Positions 29,783-46,522 of a stretch of 64,000 bases of DNA are shown one piece after another; the first letter of the stretch is position 1; each line of letters starts with the position of its first letter. The translations under genes and the position numbers were made by a program. The stretch covers positions 1 to 64,000 of the forward strand of contig NZ_VCNC01000004.1 in the NCBI RefSeq assembly GCF_006210265.1, written 5' to 3'. Under the pieces are notes generated by a model, which made no database searches, was not told the DNA's origin, and saw only the letters and a program-made list of their open reading frames with translations. Origin of the DNA: Desulfovibrio sp. UCD-KL4C (lineage in GTDB: Bacteria; Desulfobacterota; Desulfovibrionia; Desulfovibrionales; Desulfovibrionaceae).

Positions 29783-30134
29783 ACCTTATTTCAAGCCATA
29801 TTTGGGCCTGTTTTGTCAAAGTATTTTATTGTCAAAATATATTCAGGTGACAAAAATCCGGCATAGTTTTCCTGCTTGCTGATTTTGAAATAGCGCATAT
29901 ACACAGCATTTTGAGCTAAGTTTTAATTTATAACACGATTAAAAAACTTGGCTGTTTAACTGCTAACATCTTGTAACTTGGAGTCTTTTAAAATTTATAT
30001 TTAGCTTAAGGCGCGTAATCAGTCTCGTAATCAGGTTGCTAAAAAATATGCTTTGGGTGTTTGGTCTTTATTTTGCATCAAGCTAGGTCAGTAAACCCTT
30101 CTGACAGTATTTGGAATGCACAAGGAGACCCGAT

Positions 30135-31610
30135 ATGAAGAGAGGAGAAAGACCTGAACTGCTTTGGGGGTTCGGTCTAAACAGCATAGAAGTCGGTAAA
30201 ATAAAGGATTCTCTTGGTCCAGGATTTTTCTTAAGGAATTTTTCCGAAAGATCTCTTCCCGGTGAGAAAGAATTGCTCCAGCCTGAAAAGCCTTCCGCTA
30301 CATGGATTCCGCTACGGGTTTGGAATGAACTTCCTGAAGCTCGTCGAGAAGCGTATCGTAAGCTTGAGTCTACTCAGCGTATTCTTATACAGGATGAATC
30401 TGAAAAGAATGTTGATCTTGAGAGTGTTCTTGAAGACGGATTTCTTGCAGTAATAAATTCACCGTTAACAACTTCTAAAGTTCAGGATGCTCTTTTTAGA
30501 GCTAAGGAAGTAGCCGGCCTTTATGGCGACCTCTACAGAATGACTGAAGAAATCATAATGGAGCGAGAGCTTCTTTCCCGTAAAACTGAACAGCTCATGT
30601 TTCTTAATACTGTCCTTTCTAACGCTACTGAGCGTCTTGAAGTTTCAGATATTCTAGGACAGGCTGTAGAGGATTTGAAGCTGTTGCTTCCAGTTCTTTC
30701 TGTTCAAGGAGTTTTTTGGGATGTTGTTCCTGCCGAAGCTAAGACAGAAGCTGAGATTTTCATTAATCCCGGTCTTATCCCTGCTGTTCAGGAGGAATGG
30801 ATCGAATTTATGATCGGCAGTGTTACAAAGCTCAGCGGAATAGAAGTTGGCGGATATAAAATTTCTGAAACTACTCATGTCGGTGACGCTTCTATGTGTT
30901 ACGGACCGACTGGTGGAAGAGTGCTTGCTCTCCCTTTGATTACAAGAGGCGAAAAGTTTGGTTGTCTGGTTATGCTTTGCGATAAGTCGGTAAGGCTTGC
31001 AAAGGATCAGGTTAGCACGCTTAACGCCGCGGTGAATCATTTGTCGCTTGCACTTAATAACGCTTTGATGTTTACCAAGATTAAGACCCGTGCGGATCGT
31101 GACGGACTTACCAGAGTTTACAATCGCCGCAGTTTTGATGAAAGACTGGTCGAAGAACTCAGGCGTCATCAGCGTCATGGTATGGATCTGTCTTTACTAA
31201 TGATTGATCTCGATTATTTCAAGAGAGTGAACGATACCTACGGTCATATTGCAGGTGATCTTGTTCTTGAAACAACAGCAAGAATTTTTGAAGAAACATT
31301 CAGAACCACAGATTTTATTGCTCGTTACGGCGGAGAAGAATTTGTAATTCTGCTCCCTCATACCAAAGTTGATCAGGCTGAAATGCTTGCTGAACGGATC
31401 AGGGAAAAGATAGAATCTCACACGATGTCTTATCGTGATGTTGATTTTAAGGTCACAGCAAGTATAGGAGTCTCTTCTATCCGCCCCGGTAGCCTCGCAA
31501 AAGGTGCTGAAATAGTACGCAAGGCTGATGAAGCATTATATAAAGCTAAGAAGCAGGGACGTAATAAAGTTGTTGTTTCCAGCTCATCTGCAAGGCTTAG
31601 GGTGGTCTAA
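30135..31610 (+). CDS. GAF-GGDEF diguanylate cyclase
   Basis: This 491-aa soluble protein makes c-di-GMP. The start at 30135 is set by AAGGAG at 30122-30127, since the longer frame begins at a TTG without a site. Residues 1-150 are an uncharacterised N-terminal region. A short coiled coil leads into a GAF-like domain at about 165-320. The GGDEF domain follows with GGEEF at 399-403. The inhibitory I-site RxxD is intact at R390-D393, five residues before the active site, so product inhibition is expected. The gene is monocistronic and ends at a strong terminator. Confidence 0.93.
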   Translation: MKRGERPELLWGFGLNSIEVGKIKDSLGPGFFLRNFSERSLPGEKELLQPEKPSATWIPLRVWNELPEARREAYRKLESTQRILIQDESEKNVDLESVLEDGFLAVINSPLTTSKVQDALFRAKEVAGLYGDLYRMTEEIIMERELLSRKTEQLMFLNTVLSNATERLEVSDILGQAVEDLKLLLPVLSVQGVFWDVVPAEAKTEAEIFINPGLIPAVQEEWIEFMIGSVTKLSGIEVGGYKISETTHVGDASMCYGPTGGRVLALPLITRGEKFGCLVMLCDKSVRLAKDQVSTLNAAVNHLSLALNNALMFTKIKTRADRDGLTRVYNRRSFDERLVEELRRHQRHGMDLSLLMIDLDYFKRVNDTYGHIAGDLVLETTARIFEETFRTTDFIARYGGEEFVILLPHTKVDQAEMLAERIREKIESHTMSYRDVDFKVTASIGVSSIRPGSLAKGAEIVRKADEALYKAKKQGRNKVVVSSSSARLRVV

Positions 31611-33908: not shown

Positions 33909-34394
33909 ATGGGAAATAGTGAACTTACTAAGCTTTTGCAGGATGTTGTACTTAAAAACGAAAAACCTGCTCGCGACGTTGCAACAGAAATAAACAAGCC
34001 TTACCCAACACTTCTTCGTGAAATCAATCCTGAAGATAAAGGTGCTAAAGTAGGTATTGAAGAACTTGTTCCTCTCATGAGATCAACAGGAAGCATTCGC
34101 CCGCTAACCAGACTTGCAAATATTATGGGCTACGTTCTCGTTCCTATGGATATTAATCCTGGCGATCCTGACGAAGCAAACTACATGGCTCTTGATTTGA
34201 TGGATGGTTTCGGAAGATATTCCAAGGCTCTTAAAAGCGCTTTGCAGGCTGATCCTAAAGAAGATTTGGTTAATATTGTTGAGCAGGAAGGCTTTGAAGC
34301 TATCACAGCAATTTTAACAATGGTTCACTATCTGCGTAAAAGAGCTGAAGAAGAAAAAACTAAAAACGCTCCCCGTCTTGCTCAGGTAAGCTAG
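33909..34394 (+). CDS. Phage CII-like regulatory protein (Phage_CP76 family)
   Basis: This 161-aa protein shows the CP76/phage regulatory CII pattern. The N-terminal part has KNEKPARDVATEINKPYPTLLREINPEDKGAKVGIEELVPLMRSTG and then RPLTRLANIMGYVLVPM, where a helix-turn-helix chooses DNA. A helical C-terminus for oligomerisation follows. It is a single gene between two terminators with no other phage genes, so it is probably a domesticated phage regulator. Function in the host is unknown. Confidence 0.75.
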   Translation: MGNSELTKLLQDVVLKNEKPARDVATEINKPYPTLLREINPEDKGAKVGIEELVPLMRSTGSIRPLTRLANIMGYVLVPMDINPGDPDEANYMALDLMDGFGRYSKALKSALQADPKEDLVNIVEQEGFEAITAILTMVHYLRKRAEEEKTKNAPRLAQVS

Positions 34395-34715: not shown

Positions 34716-35000
34716 ACACTCCTCCATGAGTGGGGAATATTCATCAGCCGTGAAAATGGCTTACATGGTCCTAATTTAGGTATCGGCTGAAAGGAGCAAT
34801 CACTTTACAGGCGAAAAAATATTTTTAAATAAATATGAATAGATGATGCTTATCGCTGATTTAATCATATAAAATAAATAGAAAGAGGTTATGAGTGTAG
34901 CCGTGCCTTACTTGTTTTGCTATGTTTAAAAAAATATCTGTAATCTGTAATAAAAAACTCTCAGCCACTCTTTTTCAGGCGAGATGACGGGAATTTCTTG

Positions 35001-37223
35001 ATGCGCTTTTCCTTAAGAAAAAAGATTATAACTATTGCCTGCGGTGCTGCGATTATTCCCATTGTCGCCATGCTTATTCTTACTCATATTTTAGAATCAA
35101 GCTTAAGCAAGAGTGTTGCATCAGAAATTAACGCCCTTATAACGTCGCATGTTTCACAGGTTACTAATGATCTTTACGGAGAATGCAGAACGTCGAATGA
35201 CTCGCTCATGCGTGAAACTAAACGCGCTTCAATGACTTTACAGTCAATGTTGGATGATAGTGGAGATGTCAGGGTTCTTGAGAAAGCATCGACGTGGAAC
35301 ATAGTGAATCCACTGATAAAAGATAAAATTATTTCAGTTCCTGTGCTTATGATAGGTGATTACAGCTTAACTTATGACAAACGGAAAAGGAAATCACTTC
35401 CTTTTCTTAAAGAGTCTTCAGAAATATCAGGCGCGTATTGTACAGTCTATCAGCGTATCACCCAGATGGGAGACATGCTCGTGGTTGATACCACCGCTGA
35501 AGCTGGAAAAGAAAATATGGTTATTGGTGAAATTTACTATTCGCTAAATGAGCAAGGAAAGCGTGCGTCAGTTATTGATGAGATCCTTGCCGGAAAGACT
35601 GTAAGCAGGCATTGCGAAGACAGCGATGGCATCAAGTATATTGTTTACTCTCCTCTTAAGGATAAAGGTGGAAATATTAAGGGTATGCTCAGTGTCCAGA
35701 TGCATGAGGATATTGCTGAAAATATTCATCGATCTGTCCTGAAAACTTCTATTAACAAGTCAGGTTTTGTTTGGATTCTCGGCGCAAAAGGGGTGAATAA
35801 AGGAAAATATATTTTATCTCGTTTCAGTAGTTCCAAAGAAGATTCGCAAGCAAAAAATGCTCAATATGATAAGGCATTAATTGAACAGTTGATTTCAAAT
35901 GCGGTTAAGGCTGGAGAAGGTAAGCTTTTAACAGAAGAATATCTTTGGAAGCTGGGACCTGATGATACAGGGCGTATGAAACTTTCTGTTTATACATATT
36001 TTGCTCCATGGGAATGGGTTATTGGGTCCGGAGTCTATCTTGATGAATATAACGGTATACGAGATCGTCTGACCGGAACAGTCTCCAAACTTTCTCATTG
36101 GCTTGGTCTTACAGGGGTTATATTGTTGGTACTGACTCTTGTAATTTCAACGTCAGCAAGCGGGCTTATTGCTAATCCCATCATCCATATGGTCGATATT
36201 GCTAAATTAATTGCAAACGGTGATCTTTACGGAGCTAGAAATTCTATTGAAATTACTGAAAAAAAATGTCCTAACGCCCGAAATGCGGCCAAAAATATAG
36301 ATCACCAAGATCATCTTGATGAGACTGGACAACTTTATCTTGCATTTAAGAATATGGTAGAGAGTTTAGGTTCTCTTGTTGGGCAGGTCCAACGTTCCGG
36401 AATTCAGGTTACGACTTCTTCTACGGAAATAACAGCCTCGGCCAGACAACTTGATATTACCTTTAATCAACAGGCAACAGCTACTGCGCAGATAAGTGCT
36501 ACCAGCCTGGAAATTTCAGCTAATTCAGGCGAGTTGGCCGGAACCATGGGGGAAGTTAATACTTCTGCCTCAAAAATGACGAAGCTGGCACAGGAAGGAC
36601 AGGATGGCATAAAAACCATGATTAGAATTATGGATGATCTTAGCGTTTCAACCTCAAGTATTACTGATAAATTAGCCGAGATCAATGACCGGGCAAATTC
36701 AATTGAAGGAATTGTCAGCACTATCACAAAGGTTGCGGATCGGACGAATTTACTTTCACTGAATGCGGCGATTGAAGCTGAGAAAGCCGGAAAGTTTGGG
36801 CAGGGATTTTCTGTTGTGGCAGGAGAAATTCGAAGGCTTGCAGATCAGACTTCCGTTGCGGCCCTTGAAATTGAAACGACGATAGAAAACATGCGTGTTG
36901 CGATGGATTCGGGGGTTGTTGAGATGGACCGTTTCGCAGATGATGTTCGATGCGGAGCTGTAAAAGCTGTAAAAATCGGTAAAAAACTTGAAGGAATTAT
37001 GGTTGGCGTAACGAACCTTACTCCAAGAATTGAGCTGGTTAACAGCGGTATGTCGGCACAGGCCGAAGGGGCTGAACAGATCAGCGATGCAATGGGGCAA
37101 CTCTCAGATACCGCAACTAATACTTCCGATTCCCTTAAAGAATTTAATCGGGCTTCTTCGCAACTTAACGAGGCTGTTCAAGGCCTTAGGAGTGAAGTTT
37201 CGCGCTTCAAGGTGAGTGAATAA
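35001..37223 (+). CDS. WspA-like methyl-accepting chemotaxis protein with Cache sensor
   Basis: This 740-aa receptor opens the Wsp-like operon. TM1 is at about 10-30. A periplasmic double-Cache-type sensor fills about 35-360 ([12 protein letters not shown], then [20 protein letters not shown]), TM2 is at about 370-395, and a HAMP with a short insertion follows. The signalling hairpin reads [39 protein letters not shown]. The LSLN and EIRRLADQT variants match WspA and differ from the motility class ([12 protein letters not shown]). TTG at 34998 and ATG at 35001 are adjacent; the ATG is preferred. It overlaps the next cheW by one base. Confidence 0.92.
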
Positions 37224-37708
37224 TGCTCGTTCTTATTTTTCAAATCGGGCAATACGCTTATGGTCTTGAAGCCCGGATCATTGCGGAAGTGGTCCCTCCT
37301 ACAGTTTATAAGGAACTTCCGTGTTCTCCAGAGTATATTAAAGGAATATTCAATTATCGCGGCACAATTACCCCTGTTGTAGATCTTTCAATTCTTGCAA
37401 CAGCCACGCCTTGTAAGCCTTTAATGAGTACCCGTGTAATTGTTCTGGATCTTGCGGATTTAGATCCTACAGAAAAGCGCGGCGAAAAATTTTTGGGAAT
37501 GATTGCAGAAAATATTACAGAGACTGTTAAAATTTTGGATTCAGATTTTGAATCATCTGGGCTGGAAATCCCCGATGCCCCTTGGCTTGGCAGGGTTGCG
37601 CGAGTAGCTGGCGGCATGCTTCAGCTAGTTAAACCTGACAAGCTGCTTTCAGATGAGTTGCGGACAGTTCTTTTTACCAAGGAAGAAATAGAGCGGGTTA
37701 ACAGGTAA
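37223..37708 (+). CDS. CheW-like adaptor, WspB position
   Basis: This 161-aa CheW-domain protein links receptor and CheA. The conserved core is FQIGQYAYGLEARIIAEVVPP at the start and GIFNYRGTITPVVDLSIL near residue 45. TAATG joins it to the receptor gene, so translation is coupled. In the Wsp order it corresponds to WspB. Confidence 0.93.
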   Translation: MLVLIFQIGQYAYGLEARIIAEVVPPTVYKELPCSPEYIKGIFNYRGTITPVVDLSILATATPCKPLMSTRVIVLDLADLDPTEKRGEKFLGMIAENITETVKILDSDFESSGLEIPDAPWLGRVARVAGGMLQLVKPDKLLSDELRTVLFTKEEIERVNR

Positions 37709-37711
37709 GAT

Positions 37712-38956
37712 ATGAACTTAGAGCCGTTTCAAAAAATTCTTAAAAATGCCATGGGGCTTGCTCCTGATTCACTCGGTAAATCAGGTGTTCAATACGCCTT
37801 ACAAGTAAGAATGCGGGTCACAAGTTGCAGTGAAACTGAGTATCTGACTTTGGTTCAAAATGATAAGTTGGAACTTTCGGAACTGATTGAAGAAATAGTT
37901 GTATCTGAAACATGGTTTTTTAGAGATGTAAAACCCTTTGAACTTCTTTCGGAAACAGCCGTAAGTTGTTCGCGTAATTCTTATAAAGTACTCAGTGCGC
38001 CATGTTCTACAGGCGAGGAGCCATATTCGGTTGCAATGTCTCTAATGGGAGCAGGTCTTTCACCTGACCGCATTAAAATTGATGCGGTGGATATCAGCAA
38101 GAGGGCATTAATAAAGGCCAAAGAAGGTGTTTATGCAGACAATTCATTTAGATCCAAACTGCCTCTTTATGCTGAGAATTGTTTTAATAAGTGTGAGCAG
38201 GGTTTTAAGTTAATAGATAGGGTTAAAAGTGTTGTGAAATTTCATTCAGGTAATTTGCTTGATGGGGGGCTTCCTGAAGGTCAATATGATGCAATTTTTT
38301 GCAGAAATTTGATCATTTATCTCGATGACAGTTCCAGAGAATGTTTAGCTCAGATGTTTAGTGAAAGGTTGAAAAAGGATGGGTTGCTTTTTGTCGGACA
38401 TGCTGAAGCTCTGCCACTGTTTAGCCGAAATTTTACTCCGGTAAGAAGAGCTGGAACTTTTGCTTTTAAAAAGAAAGATCCTAGTAGTGAAGATAAAGTA
38501 ATTAAGACTTTTAGCTGTCTAAGGAGTAGACGTAATATTCAGCCTGCTCGCAGTAGGCAAAGCCCTTTTGAAAAGCGTATAAAGCAAGTTGTTACTAAAT
38601 CATCAGTTGATGATAATATCCTGCAAGATACTGAAAATAAAAATATTTCATTGGAAGATATTAGGATGTTAGCAGACAAAGGACAAACCGAGGAAGCTTT
38701 GTCATTATGTCATGATCTTTTGAAATCTGACGGTCCTGAGGCAGATCTTCTGCATTTGTGCGGTTTGCTCTATGAGGCACAGGGAGAGCCTGCGAAAGCA
38801 GAAGAGTATTATGGAAAAGCGTTATATTTGAATCCGCAGCATTTGGATTCTCTGGTACATCTTGCCTTGCTGGTAGAAATCAGAGGTGATGAACGCAAGG
38901 CCAGTCTTCTTCGTAAACGGGTTCTGCGGGCCGAAAAGCAAAATGAGGCAGGCTGA
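37712..38956 (+). CDS. CheR-type methyltransferase with C-terminal TPR, WspC-like
   Basis: This 414-aa enzyme methylates receptor glutamates with SAM. Residues 1-255 form the CheR fold, with SETWFFRDVKPFELL, SAPCSTGEEPYSVAMSL (SAM binding) and IFCRNLIIYLDD. Residues 310-400 carry TPR-like helices (LHLCGLLYEAQGEPAKAEEYYGKALYLNP), the hallmark of WspC. It starts 3 bp after the cheW gene and its TGA overlaps the next ATG by one base. Confidence 0.94.
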   Translation: MNLEPFQKILKNAMGLAPDSLGKSGVQYALQVRMRVTSCSETEYLTLVQNDKLELSELIEEIVVSETWFFRDVKPFELLSETAVSCSRNSYKVLSAPCSTGEEPYSVAMSLMGAGLSPDRIKIDAVDISKRALIKAKEGVYADNSFRSKLPLYAENCFNKCEQGFKLIDRVKSVVKFHSGNLLDGGLPEGQYDAIFCRNLIIYLDDSSRECLAQMFSERLKKDGLLFVGHAEALPLFSRNFTPVRRAGTFAFKKKDPSSEDKVIKTFSCLRSRRNIQPARSRQSPFEKRIKQVVTKSSVDDNILQDTENKNISLEDIRMLADKGQTEEALSLCHDLLKSDGPEADLLHLCGLLYEAQGEPAKAEEYYGKALYLNPQHLDSLVHLALLVEIRGDERKASLLRKRVLRAEKQNEAG

Positions 38957-39612
38957 TGCTTGATAGCTGCTGGAATGAAATAGGATATGCTGGTGACAGG
39001 TCATGCATTGAGCTCACAAAGTGGAGCCATTGTTACAATTGTCCGCAGTTTGCCAAGTCCGGTCTCAGCCTTTTACATAGAGAGCCGCCGGAAGGGTATC
39101 TGGCTGAAAATGCCGAGGCTATTTCGATTGTTAAAGATGAAGAAACAGCAGAAACCTCCGGGGCTGTTGTGTTCAGAATTTCAAAAGAATGGCTGGCACT
39201 GTCTTCTCTTGTATTTGTTTCAGTGCTGGAGCTTAGGAAAATACGGTCTGTTCCACATAGAAGTGGAAAATATTTTAAAGGGTTATCAAGCCTTCAAGGG
39301 GAGATAGTTCCTGTTGTTTCAGTCCGCGAGCTTTTGGGACTTGAGAGAGAATATCTGACTGAAGAAGAAAAAGGGTTCAGAGTATATAGCAGATTTATCT
39401 GTTTAGACCGTGGTGCAGGTAGATGGATTTTTGAGGCGGATGAAGTTTTAGGGGTGCATCACTATTTAACTGATGCATTACTTGATGCTCCTGCTACTGT
39501 TTCAAAAGCTCCAACAGCCTATACCAAAGGGTTGTTTGATCTTGATGAAAAGCGGATTTCTCTTCTTGATGAAGAATTGTTATTTGAAGCGTTTAACCGC
39601 ATTATCAAATAG
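38956..39612 (+). CDS. CheW-like adaptor with N-terminal Cys cluster, WspD-like
   Basis: This 218-aa protein begins with a short cysteine module, CWNEIGYAGDRSC then HCYNCPQF, which is the distinctive WspD N-terminus. A CheW domain follows at about 70-205 (SLQGEIVPVVSVRELLGLE). The four cysteines may bind a metal or a cluster. It is the second adaptor of the system and lies between cheR and cheA. Confidence 0.92.
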   Translation: MLDSCWNEIGYAGDRSCIELTKWSHCYNCPQFAKSGLSLLHREPPEGYLAENAEAISIVKDEETAETSGAVVFRISKEWLALSSLVFVSVLELRKIRSVPHRSGKYFKGLSSLQGEIVPVVSVRELLGLEREYLTEEEKGFRVYSRFICLDRGAGRWIFEADEVLGVHHYLTDALLDAPATVSKAPTAYTKGLFDLDEKRISLLDEELLFEAFNRIIK

Positions 39613-39651
39613 TAGTGGAAAATTTGGTCAGCTTGACAGGGAGTATTTAAC

Positions 39652-42432
39652 GTGACGCGCGATATGGGTGATCTTTCCATGCTCGAACTTTTTCGCATGG
39701 AAGCTGAAAACCACACCAAGGTGTTATTCTCTGGTTTAACGAATCTTGCAAAAGATCAGTCTCCAGAGTTTGTTGAGCCGCTTATTCGTGCAGCCTCCTC
39801 TCTTAAAGGGGCCGCACGCATCGTCGGTCTCGCTGATGCAATAGACGTTGCCGGAACCATTGAATCCTCGTTGGAATTATGTCGGAGCGGAGAAATAAAT
39901 GCTTCTCCGTCTTTTGTTAATGCTATGATTTCTGCTACCGAATTTCTATCTAATCTTGCCGCTGTAGAAGTTGATGAAATGGATAAGTGGCTTGAAAACA
40001 ACAGTTCTGTCCATAAGGATATCCTCGCCTCATTACAAAAATCAGAAGACGCTGCTTCTGAACCGGCTGCGCAGAATGAATCAGAGACAGAATCTGTCAT
40101 TGTCGCAGAAATTTTAGTTGATCCCCCAAAAGAGAATGTTTCGCTTGCGGATTTATCTATGCTTGACCTTTTCCGTATGGAAGCGGAGAGCCACTCGCAA
40201 TCGCTTACAGCAGGGCTTTTAGAACTGGAAAAAAACCAGTCTTACGATAAGGTTGAACCGCTTATGCGTGCTGCTCATTCAATGAAAGGAGCAGCCAGAA
40301 TCGTGGGTTTGGCAGACGCCGTTGATCTGGCTCATGCCATGGAAGATTTATTGGTTTCCTGCCAGAAAGGTAACGTTAAGTTGAATGGTGATCAGATAGA
40401 CCTGCTGCTTGCATCAACTGATATTTATGGTGAAGTTTCACATCTTGCTACCGACGCGATTCAGGGTTTTCTTGCAGCTAAGAAGCCTATTATGGACATG
40501 CTTGAAAGCGGGCTGCGTGGTAATGCGTCAGATTCTAAAAAGATTCTTTCTGATATCAGGTCTTCTATTGTTAATACTGCTGCGGAGATCGAAACAAAGT
40601 CAGCTTCTTCTGAATTAATAGGGAAAGTTGTTTCTGATATAAAAAATGAGCCTGCAACTGACGACTCTTTATCTTTTGTAAATAATTCTTCAAAAAATGA
40701 TGATGCTTTCGTCAGAGTTTCTGCCGGAAATCTTAATAGACTGATGGCTCTTGCCGGAGAAAGTCTGGTAGAGTCTGGAAGACTCGGTAAATTTGCTTCC
40801 TCTCTTTTAAGGCTGAAATACGGTCAGCGTGATATTATGAAGGCTATTGAGGAATCAGTAGAAAGGGTCGCTAAAGGGGAATCTCTGCCATACATAATCA
40901 GCGAGATAAAAGCGGTTATGACAGAGAATCAGAAACTTCTGGCAACGTATGCTGTAGATTTTGATACATATCGCAGGCGTTCAGATAATATTTCGGGCAG
41001 GCTTTATAATGAAGTCGTTGCCAGCCGGATGAGGCCGTTTTCCGATGGAGGATTAGGTCTTCCACGTTTAGTGCGTGATCTTGCCCGTTCCCTTGGAAAG
41101 AAAGTCGATTTTGTTGTTGAAGGTGAATCTACTGCTGTTGACAGAGATATCCTTGAAAGACTTGAAGCACCGCTTAATCATATAATCAGAAATTCTGTCG
41201 ACCACGGTATTGAGACTGCACAGGAGCGGATTGCTGCCGGAAAATCTTCTAAGGGAACTATTAAAGTTATTGCCGGACACAGAGCCGGAATGCTTTTTAT
41301 TGAAGTCCGTGATGACGGTAGGGGAATAGACCCAGAACAAATCAGAGCTAAGGTCGTAGAAAGGAAACTTGCTCCCGGTAGGATGGCAGCTGAAATGAGC
41401 CACTCCGAATTAATGGACTTTTTGTTCCTCCCCGGATTTTCAACAGCAGGTAAAGTCACCGAAATATCAGGGCGCGGTGTAGGGCTTGATGTGGTGCATT
41501 CCATGGTTCAGGACGTAGGAGGAACCGTTAGAGCTGATTCTGTGCCTGGTGAAGGAATGTCCTTCTCGATGCAGTTACCGCTGACTCTTTCAGTAATACG
41601 TACCCTGTTGGTTGAAATTTCCGGTGAACCTTTTGCTCTGCCGCTTAGCCGAATCAGCAGGATTGCTTCTGTTTTGCCAGGTCAGTTGAAACTGGTCGAA
41701 GACAGGCAGTATGTAGCTCTCGATAACGCCAATGTAGGGCTTATTCCAGCTTCCCAAGTTCTAGGAACCGAAACATCAAAAAAGGAAGAAGAGACTGTTA
41801 AAGTCGTTGTTATCAGTGACCGTATGAATAAATACGGGCTGGTTGTTGATGATTTTCTGGGTGAGCAGGAACTTGTTGTTCGTCCGCTTGACTATAGATT
41901 CGGAAAAGTACCTGATATTAATTCAGTAGCACTGATGCCTGATGGTTCTCCTGTGTTGATTTTAGATGCTGAAGATCTTGTCCGTTCAATTGATAATCTC
42001 CTTTCTGGCAGAAGACTCAGTAAGGTTGGCAGAGATGCCGTAAAGAAAGGTCCTGTGCAGCATATTCTGGTCGTTGATGACTCATTAACTGTGCGGGAAG
42101 TTGAGCGTAAACTTTTATCCAATCATGGATATGAAGTAGGTACCGCTGTTGATGGAATGGATGGATTTAACGCACTTGTTACCGGTAACTACGACCTTGT
42201 TGTTACGGATGTTGATATGCCTAGAATGAACGGTCTGGAACTAACTAGAAAAATTAAAGCTGATCCTGATTTGAAATCTATTCCGGTTATGATGGTTTCA
42301 TATAAAGACCGTGAGGAAGACAAGTTGAAAGGACTTGAAGCCGGAGCAGACTATTATCTTACAAAGAGCAGTTTTCACGACGAAACTCTTCTGACAGCTG
42401 TAGAGGATTTGATCGGCGGGGTTACGAAGTGA
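39652..42432 (+). CDS. CheA-REC hybrid kinase with two Hpt domains, WspE-like
   Basis: This 926-aa kinase of the Wsp-type system starts at GTG with AGGGAG 8 bp upstream. Two similar Hpt domains stand first. In the first (about 8-110) the phospho-accepting position is S49 (RAASSLKGAAR). In the second (about 165-270) it is H209 (RAAHSMKGAAR). Dimerisation and ATPase domains follow, with HIIRNSVDHGIE, DDGRGIDPEQI and GRGVGLDVV, then a CheW-like regulatory domain. A C-terminal receiver ends the protein, with LVVTDVDMPRMNG. It phosphorylates CheB and the phosphatase response regulator. The CheB start overlaps its stop by four bases. Confidence 0.95.
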   Translation: MTRDMGDLSMLELFRMEAENHTKVLFSGLTNLAKDQSPEFVEPLIRAASSLKGAARIVGLADAIDVAGTIESSLELCRSGEINASPSFVNAMISATEFLSNLAAVEVDEMDKWLENNSSVHKDILASLQKSEDAASEPAAQNESETESVIVAEILVDPPKENVSLADLSMLDLFRMEAESHSQSLTAGLLELEKNQSYDKVEPLMRAAHSMKGAARIVGLADAVDLAHAMEDLLVSCQKGNVKLNGDQIDLLLASTDIYGEVSHLATDAIQGFLAAKKPIMDMLESGLRGNASDSKKILSDIRSSIVNTAAEIETKSASSELIGKVVSDIKNEPATDDSLSFVNNSSKNDDAFVRVSAGNLNRLMALAGESLVESGRLGKFASSLLRLKYGQRDIMKAIEESVERVAKGESLPYIISEIKAVMTENQKLLATYAVDFDTYRRRSDNISGRLYNEVVASRMRPFSDGGLGLPRLVRDLARSLGKKVDFVVEGESTAVDRDILERLEAPLNHIIRNSVDHGIETAQERIAAGKSSKGTIKVIAGHRAGMLFIEVRDDGRGIDPEQIRAKVVERKLAPGRMAAEMSHSELMDFLFLPGFSTAGKVTEISGRGVGLDVVHSMVQDVGGTVRADSVPGEGMSFSMQLPLTLSVIRTLLVEISGEPFALPLSRISRIASVLPGQLKLVEDRQYVALDNANVGLIPASQVLGTETSKKEEETVKVVVISDRMNKYGLVVDDFLGEQELVVRPLDYRFGKVPDINSVALMPDGSPVLILDAEDLVRSIDNLLSGRRLSKVGRDAVKKGPVQHILVVDDSLTVREVERKLLSNHGYEVGTAVDGMDGFNALVTGNYDLVVTDVDMPRMNGLELTRKIKADPDLKSIPVMMVSYKDREEDKLKGLEAGADYYLTKSSFHDETLLTAVEDLIGGVTK

Positions 42433-43430
42433 GAATAGGCATAGTTAATGACATGGCTATGGCTGTGGAAGTCATAAAGAGGATTGTGGTCGGAGCCGGA
42501 TTTGAGGTGGCGTGGGTTGCCTTTAACGGTGAAGAGGCTGTTGATAAGTGTGGAAAGGATGTTCCTGATATTATTTTGCTTGATCTTGTTATGCCGGTGA
42601 TGGACGGGGCTGAAGCTACGCGGCGTATAATGAAAAGGTGTCCCTGTTCAATCTTGATAGTTACTGCCAGTATCGAAAGTAATGTTTCAAAAGTATTCGA
42701 AGCAATGGGAGCTGGAGCTCTTGATGTTGTGACAACCCCTGAGCTTGGAATAAACGGGGAGCTTGACGGGGCTAAAGATCTTATCTCTAAAATTTCATTG
42801 ATCAGGAAATTGCAGCGTATCGAAACTGTTGAAGATGTTAAGCCTGCTACAGTTTCTTTTGATAGTACTCCAAAACTGCTTGCAATTGGAAGTTCTACAG
42901 GCGGTCCGACTGCTCTGGCAACTATTCTTGGAGCTTTGCCTGCTGATTTCCCGGCAGCTATTGCGATCATTCAGCACGTTGACGGAAGTTTTTCTGAAAA
43001 CCTTGCCAGCTGGCTGAACGGGCAGACCAAGCTGGAAGTAAAGCTTGCAAAAAGTGGTGACATTTTAAAGGCCGGAAAAGTTTTGTTGGCACCCGGAAAT
43101 AGGAATATGCTTCTTAGAACAGGGGGAGTCGTTCATCTTACAGACGGTCCCGGAGAATGTTTATATGTTCCTTCAGTGGATGTTTTTTTCCAAAGTCTCT
43201 GTAATGCGAGTTTGCCTGCAGGATCAGCGGCGGTTCTTTTGACTGGAATGGGCGCGGATGGAGCGAAAGGTCTTCTTGAGTTAAGAGAAATGGACTGGTT
43301 CACGGTTGCTCAGGATAAAGAAAGCAGCGTTGTGTGGGGGATGCCTGGTGCGGCGGTGAAGATGGGCGCGGCTCGCAAAGTAAGTTCTATTGATGATATG
43401 GGCCAGGTCTTGATCAGACACTTTAAGTAA
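42429..43430 (+). CDS. CheB-type methylesterase, WspF-like
   Basis: This 333-aa receptor demethylase starts at GTG in a GTGA overlap with the cheA stop. The receiver domain (1-115) has IILLDLVMPVMDG. The esterase domain shows the complete triad: the Ser in AIGSSTGGPTAL, the His in IIQHVDGSFSE and the Asp in LLTGMGADGAKG. It resets the receptor by removing methyl groups. In Wsp systems loss of WspF locks the output on. Confidence 0.95.
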   Translation: MRIGIVNDMAMAVEVIKRIVVGAGFEVAWVAFNGEEAVDKCGKDVPDIILLDLVMPVMDGAEATRRIMKRCPCSILIVTASIESNVSKVFEAMGAGALDVVTTPELGINGELDGAKDLISKISLIRKLQRIETVEDVKPATVSFDSTPKLLAIGSSTGGPTALATILGALPADFPAAIAIIQHVDGSFSENLASWLNGQTKLEVKLAKSGDILKAGKVLLAPGNRNMLLRTGGVVHLTDGPGECLYVPSVDVFFQSLCNASLPAGSAAVLLTGMGADGAKGLLELREMDWFTVAQDKESSVVWGMPGAAVKMGAARKVSSIDDMGQVLIRHFK

Positions 43431-43451
43431 CGGTTTTATGGAGACTGCTAA

Positions 43452-44645
43452 ATGACAAATTCCAGTATTGATGAAGAGTTACTGACCGAGCACAAAATCA
43501 GCGTGCTTTTGATAGATGATCAGCCCATGGTCGGTGAAGCTGTGCGCAGAATGCTGGCTGAAGAAAAAGACATAGATTTTCATTTTGTCAGTGACCCGAC
43601 AACAGCAATCCCAACTGCCGAAAAACTTGAGCCTACAGTTATTTTACAGGATCTGGTCATGCCGGAGATTGATGGAATGACCATGGTAAAATTCATGCGG
43701 GCCAACTCAAAGCTTAAAAATATTCCGTTGATTGTTCTTTCCACAAAAGAGGAAGCTACCACTAAAGCTGAAGCCTTTGCTCTCGGAGCTAATGATTACT
43801 TAGTTAAGCTTCCGGATAAGGTCGAACTTATTGCACGCATCAGATATCACTCAAAAGGTTACATTAACCTGCTCCAGAGAAATGAAGCTTATAAACAGCT
43901 TTTTGAAAGCAGAGATGCCATGCGTAAAGAGCTTGCTGTTGCCGCTGATTATGTAACTTCACTTCTGCCTAACCCTGTTGAAACAGGTGATATTAAGGCT
44001 GATTGGCGGTTTCTTCCTTCTGCGTCCCTTGGTGGTGATTCTTTCGGTTATCACTGGCTGGATGATGATCATTTCGCCATGTACCTGCTTGATGTCTGTG
44101 ATCACGGGGTCGGTTCTGCGTTACTTTCCGTTTCTGCTATGAACGTTTTACGCTCTCAGACGCTGCCGGATACAGATTTTCATAAGCCGGATGAAGTCCT
44201 TTTTGCTCTGAATGAATCTTTCCAGATGGATCAACAGAACAATTTATATTTCACTATGTGGTATGGAATTTTTAAAAAGTCTGATCGTACTTTAACTTTC
44301 TCCAGCGGAGGACATCCACCTGCTTTGCTTATGAATGGTGATGAAGTCGCACAGCTGAGGACTCCGGGAATGATTGTCGGTGGAATGCCGGATATGGAGT
44401 ATACCAGTGATTCAATAACTGTACGTCCGGGGGCCCGCTTTTTTCTATACAGTGACGGAGTTTATGAGCTTAAAAAAGTGTCAGACGGTAAAATGTGGGA
44501 CTTTGAAGGGTTTGTAAATTTTATGAAATCCACAACAGGCTCGCTCGGTAATCCTATTGATATGCTTCTAGCATACACCAAGGAACTGCAGGGGCGTGAC
44601 GATTACGACGATGATTTTTCAATGGTCGAGTTTATTTTTGAATAG
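43452..44645 (+). CDS. Response regulator with WspR-like receiver and PP2C/SpoIIE phosphatase output
   Basis: This 397-aa output protein occupies the WspR position of the cluster. The receiver (about 15-135) has LLIDDQPMVGEAVRRML, the acceptor in ILQDLVMPEIDG, and LGANDYLVKLPDKVELIARIRYHS, all as in WspR. A helical linker leads to a PP2C/SpoIIE phosphatase (about 195-395) with the metal aspartates in LGGDSFGYHW, LLDVCDHGVGSAL, LYSDGVYE and RDDYDDDFSMV. There is no GGDEF domain. The expected substrate is a phosphorylated STAS anti-sigma antagonist, but no such gene is in the window. Confidence 0.93.
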   Translation: MTNSSIDEELLTEHKISVLLIDDQPMVGEAVRRMLAEEKDIDFHFVSDPTTAIPTAEKLEPTVILQDLVMPEIDGMTMVKFMRANSKLKNIPLIVLSTKEEATTKAEAFALGANDYLVKLPDKVELIARIRYHSKGYINLLQRNEAYKQLFESRDAMRKELAVAADYVTSLLPNPVETGDIKADWRFLPSASLGGDSFGYHWLDDDHFAMYLLDVCDHGVGSALLSVSAMNVLRSQTLPDTDFHKPDEVLFALNESFQMDQQNNLYFTMWYGIFKKSDRTLTFSSGGHPPALLMNGDEVAQLRTPGMIVGGMPDMEYTSDSITVRPGARFFLYSDGVYELKKVSDGKMWDFEGFVNFMKSTTGSLGNPIDMLLAYTKELQGRDDYDDDFSMVEFIFE

Positions 44646-44677
44646 CAGCCAGTTTTTAGTTTCAAAGAGGGTGGAAG

Positions 44678-46522
44678 ATGAATATTCGTAAACAGTTCAT
44701 GATAGGGTGCGTAGCTTTTTGTCTGGTGCTGACAGTTGCCATTCTTTTGCTGATTTCAAATTATACCCGTAAAACTCTTATGCAGGAGTATCAGGGTAAA
44801 GCTGAAATCATGCTTCACTCTATGATGGCGGTTCGCCAATATACCGGAGCAGTGATCCGGCCTTCGGCAACAGAGCTGTTGCAAAAGGATCAGTTTATGC
44901 CAGAATTGCAGTCCACCTCATTAACGTCCAACGGTGTTTTCAGCCGCATTCCAGATAAGTTTAAGCATGAAATTATATATAAGACAGCTTCAACCAAGCC
45001 GCGAAACCCTTTAAATATGGCAACTACTGATGAAGCTCTTATAATCAATGATCTTGATAGGCTTGCTAAAAAGGGCAAGACTCCGTTTTGGGAGGGCGTT
45101 AGAAAAGTAAACGGTATTGATTATTATATTATTGCAGAAGGAGAATCCAATAAGCCTGAGTGCATGGTTTGTCACGGTACACCGGCACAAGCACCGCAAT
45201 CAATGAAAGACAAGTATCCTGTTGAAAAGGATGACGGTTATTATCGTAAACCGGGGCGTGTTGAATGTGCTCAGATTGCTTCAATTCCGCTTTCTACAAT
45301 GAACATGATGGCGAACCAGACTCTTGGGACTGCAATTTTTATAGGTTTCTTTTTTATTGCATTTGTTTTAGCTTTTTTATTTTTCGGGCTTAATTTACTT
45401 TTTAGTCCAATTTCACAAATTACAGATATTGCTAAGTTTATTGCAGAAGGTGACATAGAAAGCGCGAACATTTCAATTCAAAATTTAAGACGCTCTGCAC
45501 AGGGTAAATTCTTTGCATCTAAAATAATGAAGTCAGGAAATGAAATAGGGAATCTGGTTCAGTCTTTTGAAAAAATGACAGATGGACTTTCATCTCTGAT
45601 AACTGAAGTCCGGGATTCCGGAGACAACGTTTCGGTTGCCGGTAGAAAAATAAGTGCTACTGTCGGCGATATTGCTTCAGCTGTGACCAGACAGGCCGCT
45701 TCTACTAATGAAGTTACTGCAACAAGCAGTCTTATCCGTAAAACATCAAGAAATCTTGTTGAGGTCATGGAAGATGTTGCAGGAAATGCTTCTGAATCCG
45801 CAGATTTAGCTGAAGTTCTTCAAGGTAATATTTCACTTCGCGAAAAGTCTCTCATCAGTCTTGTTAATTCTACAGATGATGTTTCATCCAGACTGGGAGC
45901 CATAAACGAAAAAGCTACTAAAATTAATCAGATTGTAACAACCATTGCCAGAATTGCCGACCAGACTAACCTGCTTTCGCTTAACGCAGCGATTGAAGCT
46001 GAGAAAGCCGGACAATTCGGACAGGGATTTTCTGTTGTAGCACGGGAGATTAGAAGGCTTGCAGATCAGACAGTTCTTGCTGCTGAAGATATTGAGCTTA
46101 TGGTTCGTGATATGCAAACCGCTGTAAGTTCTGGTGTAACAGAAATGGAAAAATTTAATAGTGAAGTCCGCTCAAGCGTTGATGAAGTTGAAAAAATGAG
46201 TTTTGACCTTGGTCAGATCACTGAACAGGTGAGAGTTCTCAAGCCGAAGTTTGCTGAAGTTTCACAGGCTATAGGGGATCAGGCGGACAGTGCTGAGCAA
46301 ATCAATGAAGCTATGTCTGACTTGAGTGATTCCGCTGTGGGGGCAACAAGCTCAATTGAAGATTTTAAACGGACTGTCGCCAGTTTAAATTATACTGTGC
46401 AGAGCTTATCAGGAGCGGTTGATGGGTTCAAGGTTGCTGAGTCGAAAGCGAAGAAGTTTGCAGAAGCGAGTGAAAGTGAAACCGTGGAAACCGGTAAAAA
46501 TGACTTTGAACAAGAGAATTAA
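44678..46522 (+). CDS. Chemoreceptor with periplasmic c-type haem sensor domain (DUF3365/Tll0287-like)
   Basis: This 614-aa receptor lies 32 bp after the phosphatase regulator. TM1 is at about 8-28. The periplasmic domain (30-210) has the Tll0287-like pattern and a c-type haem site C162-M-V-C165-H166 followed by G. TM2 is at about 220-245, followed by HAMP. The signalling tip [39 protein letters not shown] is nearly the same as in the first receptor, so both should feed the same CheA. A bound haem would let it sense redox state, oxygen or NO. A Glu-rich tail ends the protein. Confidence 0.92.

Follow-up and report, generated by a model that had tools for sequence, protein, structure and literature searches.

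The Wsp system is the textbook surface-sensing route to cyclic diguanylate (c-di-GMP), and the locus described here raises the question of what such a system would control when a phosphatase domain stands in the place of the GGDEF domain of its regulator. The locus lies in a stretch of 64,000 nucleotides (hereafter the window) of contig NZ_VCNC01000004.1 from Desulfovibrio sp. UCD-KL4C, whose genome (3.93 Mb) is referred to as G000. Eight genes occupy positions 35001–46522, all on the + strand and with intergenic gaps of −4 to 39 bases, in the order MCP1 (MCP, methyl-accepting chemotaxis protein, that is, a chemoreceptor), CheW1, CheR-TPR, CheW2, CheA-REC, CheB, REC-PP2C, and MCP2, and each assignment is supported by Pfam. 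As judged from sequence, they constitute a complete Wsp-type chemosensory operon, the predicted output of which joins the receiver and stalk of a WspR-type protein to an intact PP2C phosphatase of the SpoIIE/RsbU type. The best explanation of the locus, considered quite probable as a whole, is a Wsp system with both ends exchanged, in which the PP2C output would drive a partner switch formed by a STAS protein and an RsbW-type kinase.

The kinship of the core was assessed against the seven genes of the annotated plasmid operon of Azoarcus sp. KH32C (L120) and the Che-type paralogues present in the loci fetched from G000, a set that covers part of the Che-type paralogues of this genome and leaves its other chemoreceptors outside the comparison. 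Within this set, the top-scoring match of every core protein was its Azoarcus Wsp counterpart. For example, CheA-REC is 46% identical to WspE, as against 36% or less for the own-genome paralogues compared, and CheB is 46% identical to WspF, as against 34–36% for the full-length own-genome paralogues. The signalling part of MCP1 is 42% identical to WspA over 363 amino acids (aa), and that of MCP2 is 37% identical to the Azoarcus Wsp receptor. CheW2 is 35% identical to WspD, and the motif CWxxIGxxGDRSC..HCxNCP is common to both. In addition, the order MCP-CheW-CheR(TPR)-CheW-CheA(REC)-CheB-regulator equals that of the plasmid Wsp operons of Novosphingobium, Cupriavidus and Azoarcus (L118, L119, L120), the first two of which terminate in REC-GGDEF. 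By these comparisons the operon core (two CheW, CheR-TPR, CheA-REC, CheB) is Wsp. One detail of the picture given by an earlier, sequence-only reading of the window has to be corrected: the first Hpt domain of CheA lacks the phosphoacceptor His (AASSLKG), and it is the second that has AHSMKG. The duplication of Hpt in this CheA (39652–42432) seems to have been carried further in the genome G014, where the repeat appears to have grown to about four copies (L088 7791–12023, a 1410-aa frame).

The receiver of the regulator points in the same direction. The best solved relatives of residues 15–158 are the WspR-type chains 3bre (E 4.5e-53), presumably WspR of Pseudomonas aeruginosa, and 3i5a (E 9.1e-51); the third is a REC-PP2C chain, 3eq2 (8.3e-27), aligned across both domains. 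A receiver tree of 55 rows was built with eight WspR, three REC-cyclase, 32 operon REC-PP2C, nine other REC-PP2C and three other receivers; the 32 rows include the window and L008, and 12 operon-positive genomes added later are absent from the trees, as is the HsbR receiver from this one. All WspR, REC-cyclase and operon REC-PP2C receivers fall on one side of a branch with 100/100 support, and the nine receivers of other REC-PP2C proteins and the three remaining receivers fall outside it, several of these outside rows being very long-branched and unsure in their placement. The 32 operon receivers form a single clade (92/86), which is joined with the cyclase receivers at 100/97. On the basis of this tree and the ranking in the PDB, the receiver is assigned to the WspR type, and a general or RssB-like REC-PP2C receiver is ruled out. 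The stretch from RIRYHS to GGD..FG could be read in the 18 of the 32 loci that match this pattern, and measures 71 residues in 15 of them and 70 in three, a constancy of linker length that is suggestive only. Crossing helical linkers have been proposed to allow the exchange of receivers between PPM phosphatases and GGDEF cyclases (PMC12143880; this and the other PMC sources are cited for excerpts of their text).

The phosphatase domain, assigned by Pfam to SpoIIE, retains D196, D214, H218, D335, D387 and D388, which are identical in 32 of the 32 operon regulators examined. The aspartates of PP2C domains bind metal, and here the role of metal ligand was assigned by alignment to SpoIIE-type chains. 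The active site is thus predicted to be intact, and an inactive PP2C was rejected on the strength of the invariant catalytic aspartates. In a tree of PP2C domains, the 32 operon domains and 14 free PP2Cs make up one group (99/85), from which the three paralogues of G000 included are separated (100/97); within this group, the operon domains are not one clade.

Conservation of the arrangement was examined at two distances. A scan of genome contigs returned only two close relatives, both metagenome-assembled genomes labelled Desulfovibrio sp. Among 288 genomes of the family, 33 match the regulator at E 1e-55 or better, and 30 of them have it in full length, 17 in the window's own genus. The other three match over the PP2C only and were excluded; G013 and G054 hold a GAF-PP2C protein in a different context, and the G022 contig measures 3 kb. 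CheA and CheB lie upstream of the full-length regulator and on the same strand in 30 of 30 family genomes, two of these rows being incomplete (the G041 contig stops within CheA, and G075 is without a CheW1 match at the threshold used); therefore, the arrangement is not due to chance. Outside the family, a full regulator of at least 53% identity is present in 14 genomes (12 of 395 sampled and 2 of 46 more), and the operon accompanies it in 11 of them. In the genus g233 (G396, G683) just CheB and the regulator adjoin, which weighs against the preferred explanation, and the 4.6 kb contig of G298 does not allow the gene context to be judged. Two further full-length proteins (G495 and G218, 41–42% identity) have non-Wsp receivers and were not counted. 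The sequence-only reading had proposed a Wsp operon with a WspR-like receiver and with a complete PP2C in place of GGDEF, and had named a receiver grouping with general regulators and an operon association not conserved in relatives as signs of the contrary; the proposals agree with the results above, and neither sign was found, the receiver standing apart from those of other REC-PP2C regulators and the association being conserved. Two peculiarities are found in genus g9: its operon CheB (L094–L099) seems to be without a receiver domain, matches starting near residue 140, and genes that read from sequence as subunits of a NiFe-type hydrogenase lie just downstream of the regulator in L094–L096, L098 and L099.

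The exchange of the effector is not confined to PP2C. A search with the receiver only found a Wsp-type receiver (E 1e-32 or better) in 23 of the 395 genomes, 16 of them ending in PP2C and seven in GGDEF; for three of these seven (L231–L233) the surrounding operon was read. In family f49, the Wsp operons of three of the PP2C genomes (L224, L225 and L226, from G477, G384 and G342) end in a tandem of Wsp-type receivers, the effector being an adenylate/guanylate-type cyclase for one and PP2C for the other (Pfam for one of the operons). It seems somewhat more probable than the contrary that the Wsp core, taken with the receiver and stalk of WspR, works as a portable actuator on which nature has swapped the effector several times, with GGDEF, PP2C or a cyclase–PP2C tandem within one phylum, so that the array would control c-di-GMP, protein dephosphorylation, or a cyclic nucleotide plus dephosphorylation according to the lineage. 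The class with phosphatase output is conserved in Desulfovibrio-type genomes and in other families of the phylum, one of which has the cyclase–PP2C tandem, and it shows Wsp to be a sensing core with exchangeable ends, seemingly capable of driving quite different cell responses; and, with a nearly matched receiver and stalk on three effectors, how one receiver activates different effector folds becomes directly testable. With respect to distribution, a 2021 survey (PMC8552884) describes 794 Wsp clusters, each with either WspR or WspH as its output and exclusively from beta- and gammaproteobacteria; contrary to this range, Wsp with REC-GGDEF also occurs in L118 (the Novosphingobium plasmid) and L231–L233.

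The input end differs from classical Wsp as well. All three plasmid WspA proteins tested carry a four-helix-bundle sensor, which Pfam does not find in MCP1 (Cache_3-Cache_2) or MCP2 (Tll0287-like). The surface sensing put forward by the sequence-only reading is thus not indicated by the receptor sequences. Its other suggestion, redox sensing, fares better at MCP2, whose Tll0287-like domain has a CxxCH motif that recurs in each of the 11 related loci examined. The Tll0287-like family has been described as c-heme Cache domains (sCache_heme) in a 2026 preprint, in which a signalling-associated member bound nitric oxide (NO) and formed no stable O2 complex, and a stand-alone member looked redox-related (PMC12889525). 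Because of the motif and these members, redox or NO sensing by MCP2 is plausible by analogy.

In the proposed mechanism, the four-helix sensor of WspA would have been replaced by a Cache3-Cache2 receptor and a second, c-heme Cache receptor added, and PP2C would have been substituted for GGDEF with the core, the WspR receiver and the helical stalk kept. A ligand or a change of heme state at the receptors would alter CheA activity, and CheA would phosphorylate the receiver, probably at Asp67. Dimerization or higher assembly of the receiver might then act via the stalk on a PP2C dimer, a step that fits the linker-exchange proposal of PMC12143880. The active PP2C would act on a STAS protein consisting of a single domain and remove the phosphate from its conserved Ser, after which this protein would capture an RsbW-type kinase/anti-factor and release the client of the latter. 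CheR-TPR and CheB, to judge from their families, would provide receptor adaptation. This would place a partner-switching pathway under an array of receptors that is adapted by methylation and includes a c-heme-type sensor.

Partner switching is the best reading of the phosphatase output because some free PP2C relatives adjoin STAS and RsbW genes and because G014 links such a pair to the operon. Four of the 14 free PP2Cs of the same tree group have both genes nearby (G498, G154, Rhizobium jaguaris and a Nostoc plasmid), and in G498 and G154 the genes STAS-RsbW-PP2C stand in a row (Pfam checked for G498). In G014 (L088), a STAS gene (2035–2379) and an RsbW gene (2454–2897), both confirmed by Pfam, are followed on the same strand by MCP1 from 3036, RsbW ending 138 bases before it, and the RsbW of G498 and G154 fall in one group with it (88/96). 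An immediate STAS-RsbW neighbour on the same strand by chance in one of 44 genomes would have a probability of a few per cent, as estimated from gene numbers. On the plasmid of Nostoc sp. UHCC 0926 (L117 6523–9648), the receiver gene and the PP2C gene seem to be the two parts of a single gene interrupted by an insertion that looks like a transposase gene.

Where the target would lie in the window's own genome has been searched for as well. As the sequence-only reading had stated, STAS and RsbW genes are absent from the window, since none of the STAS or HATPase_c_2 matches of the genome falls in it; candidates are present elsewhere in the genome. G000 has two clear RsbW-like genes, near C3:565 kb and C4:517 kb, each with a STAS gene beside it, and additionally STAS genes without an adjoining RsbW. 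The RsbW of G498 matches RsbW1 (C3) best, at 2.2e-20, and RsbW2 (C4) next, at 4.1e-4. The pair RsbW2-STAS2 is a less likely target, as the RsbW of both G498 and G014 match RsbW1 far better, and by sequence the leading candidate is RsbW1 together with STAS1 or STAS3; the target in G000 would thus probably, if tentatively, be RsbW1 and one or both of these STAS proteins, whose genes are distant from the operon. STAS3 (C4:457 kb) is an orphan and a 42% relative of STAS1, with genes for CheD and an Hpt protein close by on the same strand as its own (L106 5998–8446; G000:C4 ~455–457.5 kb). Near RsbW1-STAS1 (L102 4260–7906 and several of L236–L255), a gene resembling cyclic-nucleotide-binding proteins and an ABC transporter, as read from sequence, recur in several genera, and the client of RsbW1 might be among these recurring genes.

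A number of results weigh against partner switching or against this pair as its target. Structure prediction of the regulator from three close sequences gave a mean predicted local distance difference test score of 44, too low for use. Ten of the 14 free PP2Cs show no STAS or RsbW match in the stretch examined, which comprised full flanks for six of them (L100, L101, L227, L228, L234, L235) and little flank for four (L032, L034–L036), one of the latter, G036, having an RsbW-like match ~1.6 kb away in a separate search. Linked targets were sought by tblastn with 13 STAS and RsbW queries in the flanks of 44 operon loci, and the match at G014 was the sole one; because the pair is linked in only 1 of 44 operon-positive loci, the target has to be inferred almost everywhere. 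Moreover, the STAS of G014 matches STAS3 and not STAS1. The co-occurrence of RsbW1 with the operon, which speaks for the pair, must be read with the reservation that the statistics ignore kinship, which confounds them: a relative (E up to 0.001) is present in 20 of 20 operon-positive and 69 of 99 other genomes of the 119 sampled (p 0.003), the relative in G014 being the operon-linked gene. The stricter cut-off of 4.8e-15, which gives 20/20 versus 31/99 and, by genus, 7 of 7 against 15 of 37 (p 0.009), was set afterwards at the weakest operon-positive genome. The RsbW1-STAS1 pair is also found in operon-negative genomes, and in two without the operon (G072, G091) it is directly preceded by a HAMP-type PP2C; in G031, G041 and G069 there are other PP2C matches at distances of up to ~5 kb. 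Since a relative of the HAMP phosphatase is also present in G000, RsbW1-STAS1 may serve another phosphatase there. GGDEF matches occur ~2–3.5 kb from RsbW1-STAS1 in 5 of 20 loci (L236–L239, L246), which would fit a c-di-GMP end point. The pair is not upheld as a dedicated, exclusive target, being more widespread than the operon and having a HAMP-PP2C of its own in G072 and G091, and the GGDEF and other PP2C matches near it slightly lower the confidence in the whole explanation.

Several rival explanations have been weighed. Some partner switches end at a diguanylate cyclase, as in SiaABCD, where the cyclase is under PP2C/STAS/kinase control (PMC9239204), so a PP2C output need not mean control "instead of c-di-GMP", as the sequence-only reading had it. 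A final output that is still c-di-GMP, the phosphatase acting, as an added SiaABCD-like layer, on a STAS protein in control of a diguanylate cyclase, would be compatible with the preferred explanation up to the STAS step and is a possibility on the unlikely side: the GGDEF matches near RsbW1-STAS1 would suit it, as would a GGDEF gene at 30111–31610 of the window, 3.4 kb upstream of the operon, but no GGDEF gene exists within the operon itself and none was seen by eye among the genes beside RsbW1-STAS1 in G000, where no family search was made. The PP2C might also be active on Ser/Thr-phosphorylated proteins other than STAS, and the 43 of 44 operon-positive loci with no STAS or RsbW gene nearby could be taken in this sense; the SpoIIE/RsbU type of the domain, the four free relatives near STAS and RsbW, and the linked pair of G014 make this distinctly unlikely.

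That the regulator is an ordinary multidomain response regulator of an alternative cellular function-type cluster, already catalogued and with no special link to Wsp, is rather unlikely as well. PMC3447774 does name the Ser/Thr phosphatase 2C among the outputs of CheR-TPR clusters, but the likeness of the receiver and of the core proteins is to Wsp specifically, and the exclusive use of WspH or WspR by Wsp clusters of beta- and gammaproteobacteria in the excerpts of PMC8552884 does not favour it either. Finally, a non-catalytic PP2C acting as an adaptor, in the manner of Escherichia coli RssB, to sequester or deliver a sigma factor is very improbable: the P. aeruginosa REC-PP2C "RssB", a phosphatase/adapter (3eq2/3f7a; PMC12143880), is indeed the third-best solved relative, but none of the 32 operon regulators examined has lost any of the four metal-ligand aspartates (D196, D214, D335 and D388), and the receiver is not RssB-like.

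The preferred explanation, a Wsp core driving a partner switch through PP2C, can be compared with known systems. HsbR of P. aeruginosa consists of a receiver and PP2C and is not known as the 3′ gene of a Wsp operon. RsbY of Bacillus cereus is the REC-PP2C output of a system with a single hybrid kinase and with no known chemoreceptor array, CheW or CheA. The combination of receiver and PP2C is shared with HsbR/HsbA, which is a partner switch (PMC6482189), and with RssB-type regulators (chain 3eq2), but the RssB-type receiver lies far from WspR in the tree and, unlike the HsbR/RssB group, the window regulator has no HATPase domain. The likeness to RsbK/RsbY/RsbM of B. cereus lies in a methylation-adapted kinase, there upstream of sigma-B, RsbM methylating RsbK (PMC4574943). 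With the STAS-RsbW-PP2C operons of G498 and G154 there is 53% identity in the PP2C domain, besides the grouping of their RsbW with that linked to the operon of G014, but these operons have a GAF/PAS sensor (G498) instead of a Wsp receiver, and no chemosensory genes were seen in the stretch. With the Wsp R-system (WspABCDEFR, WspR being REC-GGDEF) the window has in common the order of the genes, the presence of two CheW, of CheR-TPR, CheA-REC and CheB, the receiver with its stalk, the Cys cluster of WspD and the receptor tip; the window differs in having PP2C and not GGDEF, Cache3-Cache2 and not the four-helix bundle, and an extra c-heme receptor. The Burkholderia Wsp H-system, with the hybrid histidine kinase WspH, offers an earlier example of a Wsp core whose output domain has been exchanged (PMC8552884), but there the output gene, that of WspH, is found 5′ of the cluster and encodes a kinase, and the output of the window lies 3′ and is a phosphatase. 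Regarding novelty, the sequence-only reading had known of no REC-PP2C protein as the dedicated output of a full Wsp operon. This holds among the literature matches listed (titles and abstract beginnings), although an entry for the lineage in table S2 of PMC3447774 is possible, and it does not extend to phosphatases in general, as phosphatase 2C-type response regulators of CheR-TPR clusters were catalogued in that paper in 2012.

The genes of the operon are as follows. The ATG at 35001 is the start of MCP1 chosen by the sequence-only reading, and an alternative TTG lies one codon upstream, at 34998.

Table 1. Genes of the Wsp-type operon and the evidence for each assignment (window coordinates).
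Feature	Position	Strand	Evidence
MCP1, chemoreceptor in WspA position	35001..37223	+	Pfam Cache_3-Cache_2 and MCPsignal
CheW1, WspB counterpart	37223..37708	+	Pfam CheW; top-scoring match Azoarcus WspB, 36%
CheR-TPR, WspC counterpart	37712..38956	+	Pfam CheR and TPR; top-scoring match Azoarcus WspC, 35% over 417 aa
CheW2 with N-terminal Cys cluster, WspD counterpart	38956..39612	+	Pfam CheW; cluster read from sequence
CheA-REC, WspE counterpart	39652..42432	+	Pfam two Hpt matches, HATPase, CheW, REC
CheB, WspF counterpart	42429..43430	+	Pfam CheB; 46% identical to Azoarcus WspF
Output regulator: WspR-type receiver and stalk (~aa 12–158), SpoIIE/RsbU-type PP2C (~aa 161–397)	43452..44645	+	Pfam REC and SpoIIE; PDB matches; trees
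MCP2, second chemoreceptor	44678..46522	+	Pfam Tll0287-like (c-heme Cache) and MCPsignal; CxxCH at aa 162–166

In a scan for promoters and terminators, promoter-like sites were no commoner than in shuffled sequences. On the 3′ side, a gene for a PhoB-type regulator lies 71 bases from the operon and is followed by one for a PhoR-type kinase. On the 5′ side, a gene for a Phage_CP76 (CII-like) regulator (33909–34394) is situated between dapF and the operon, and occupies the same position in several genomes of the genus.

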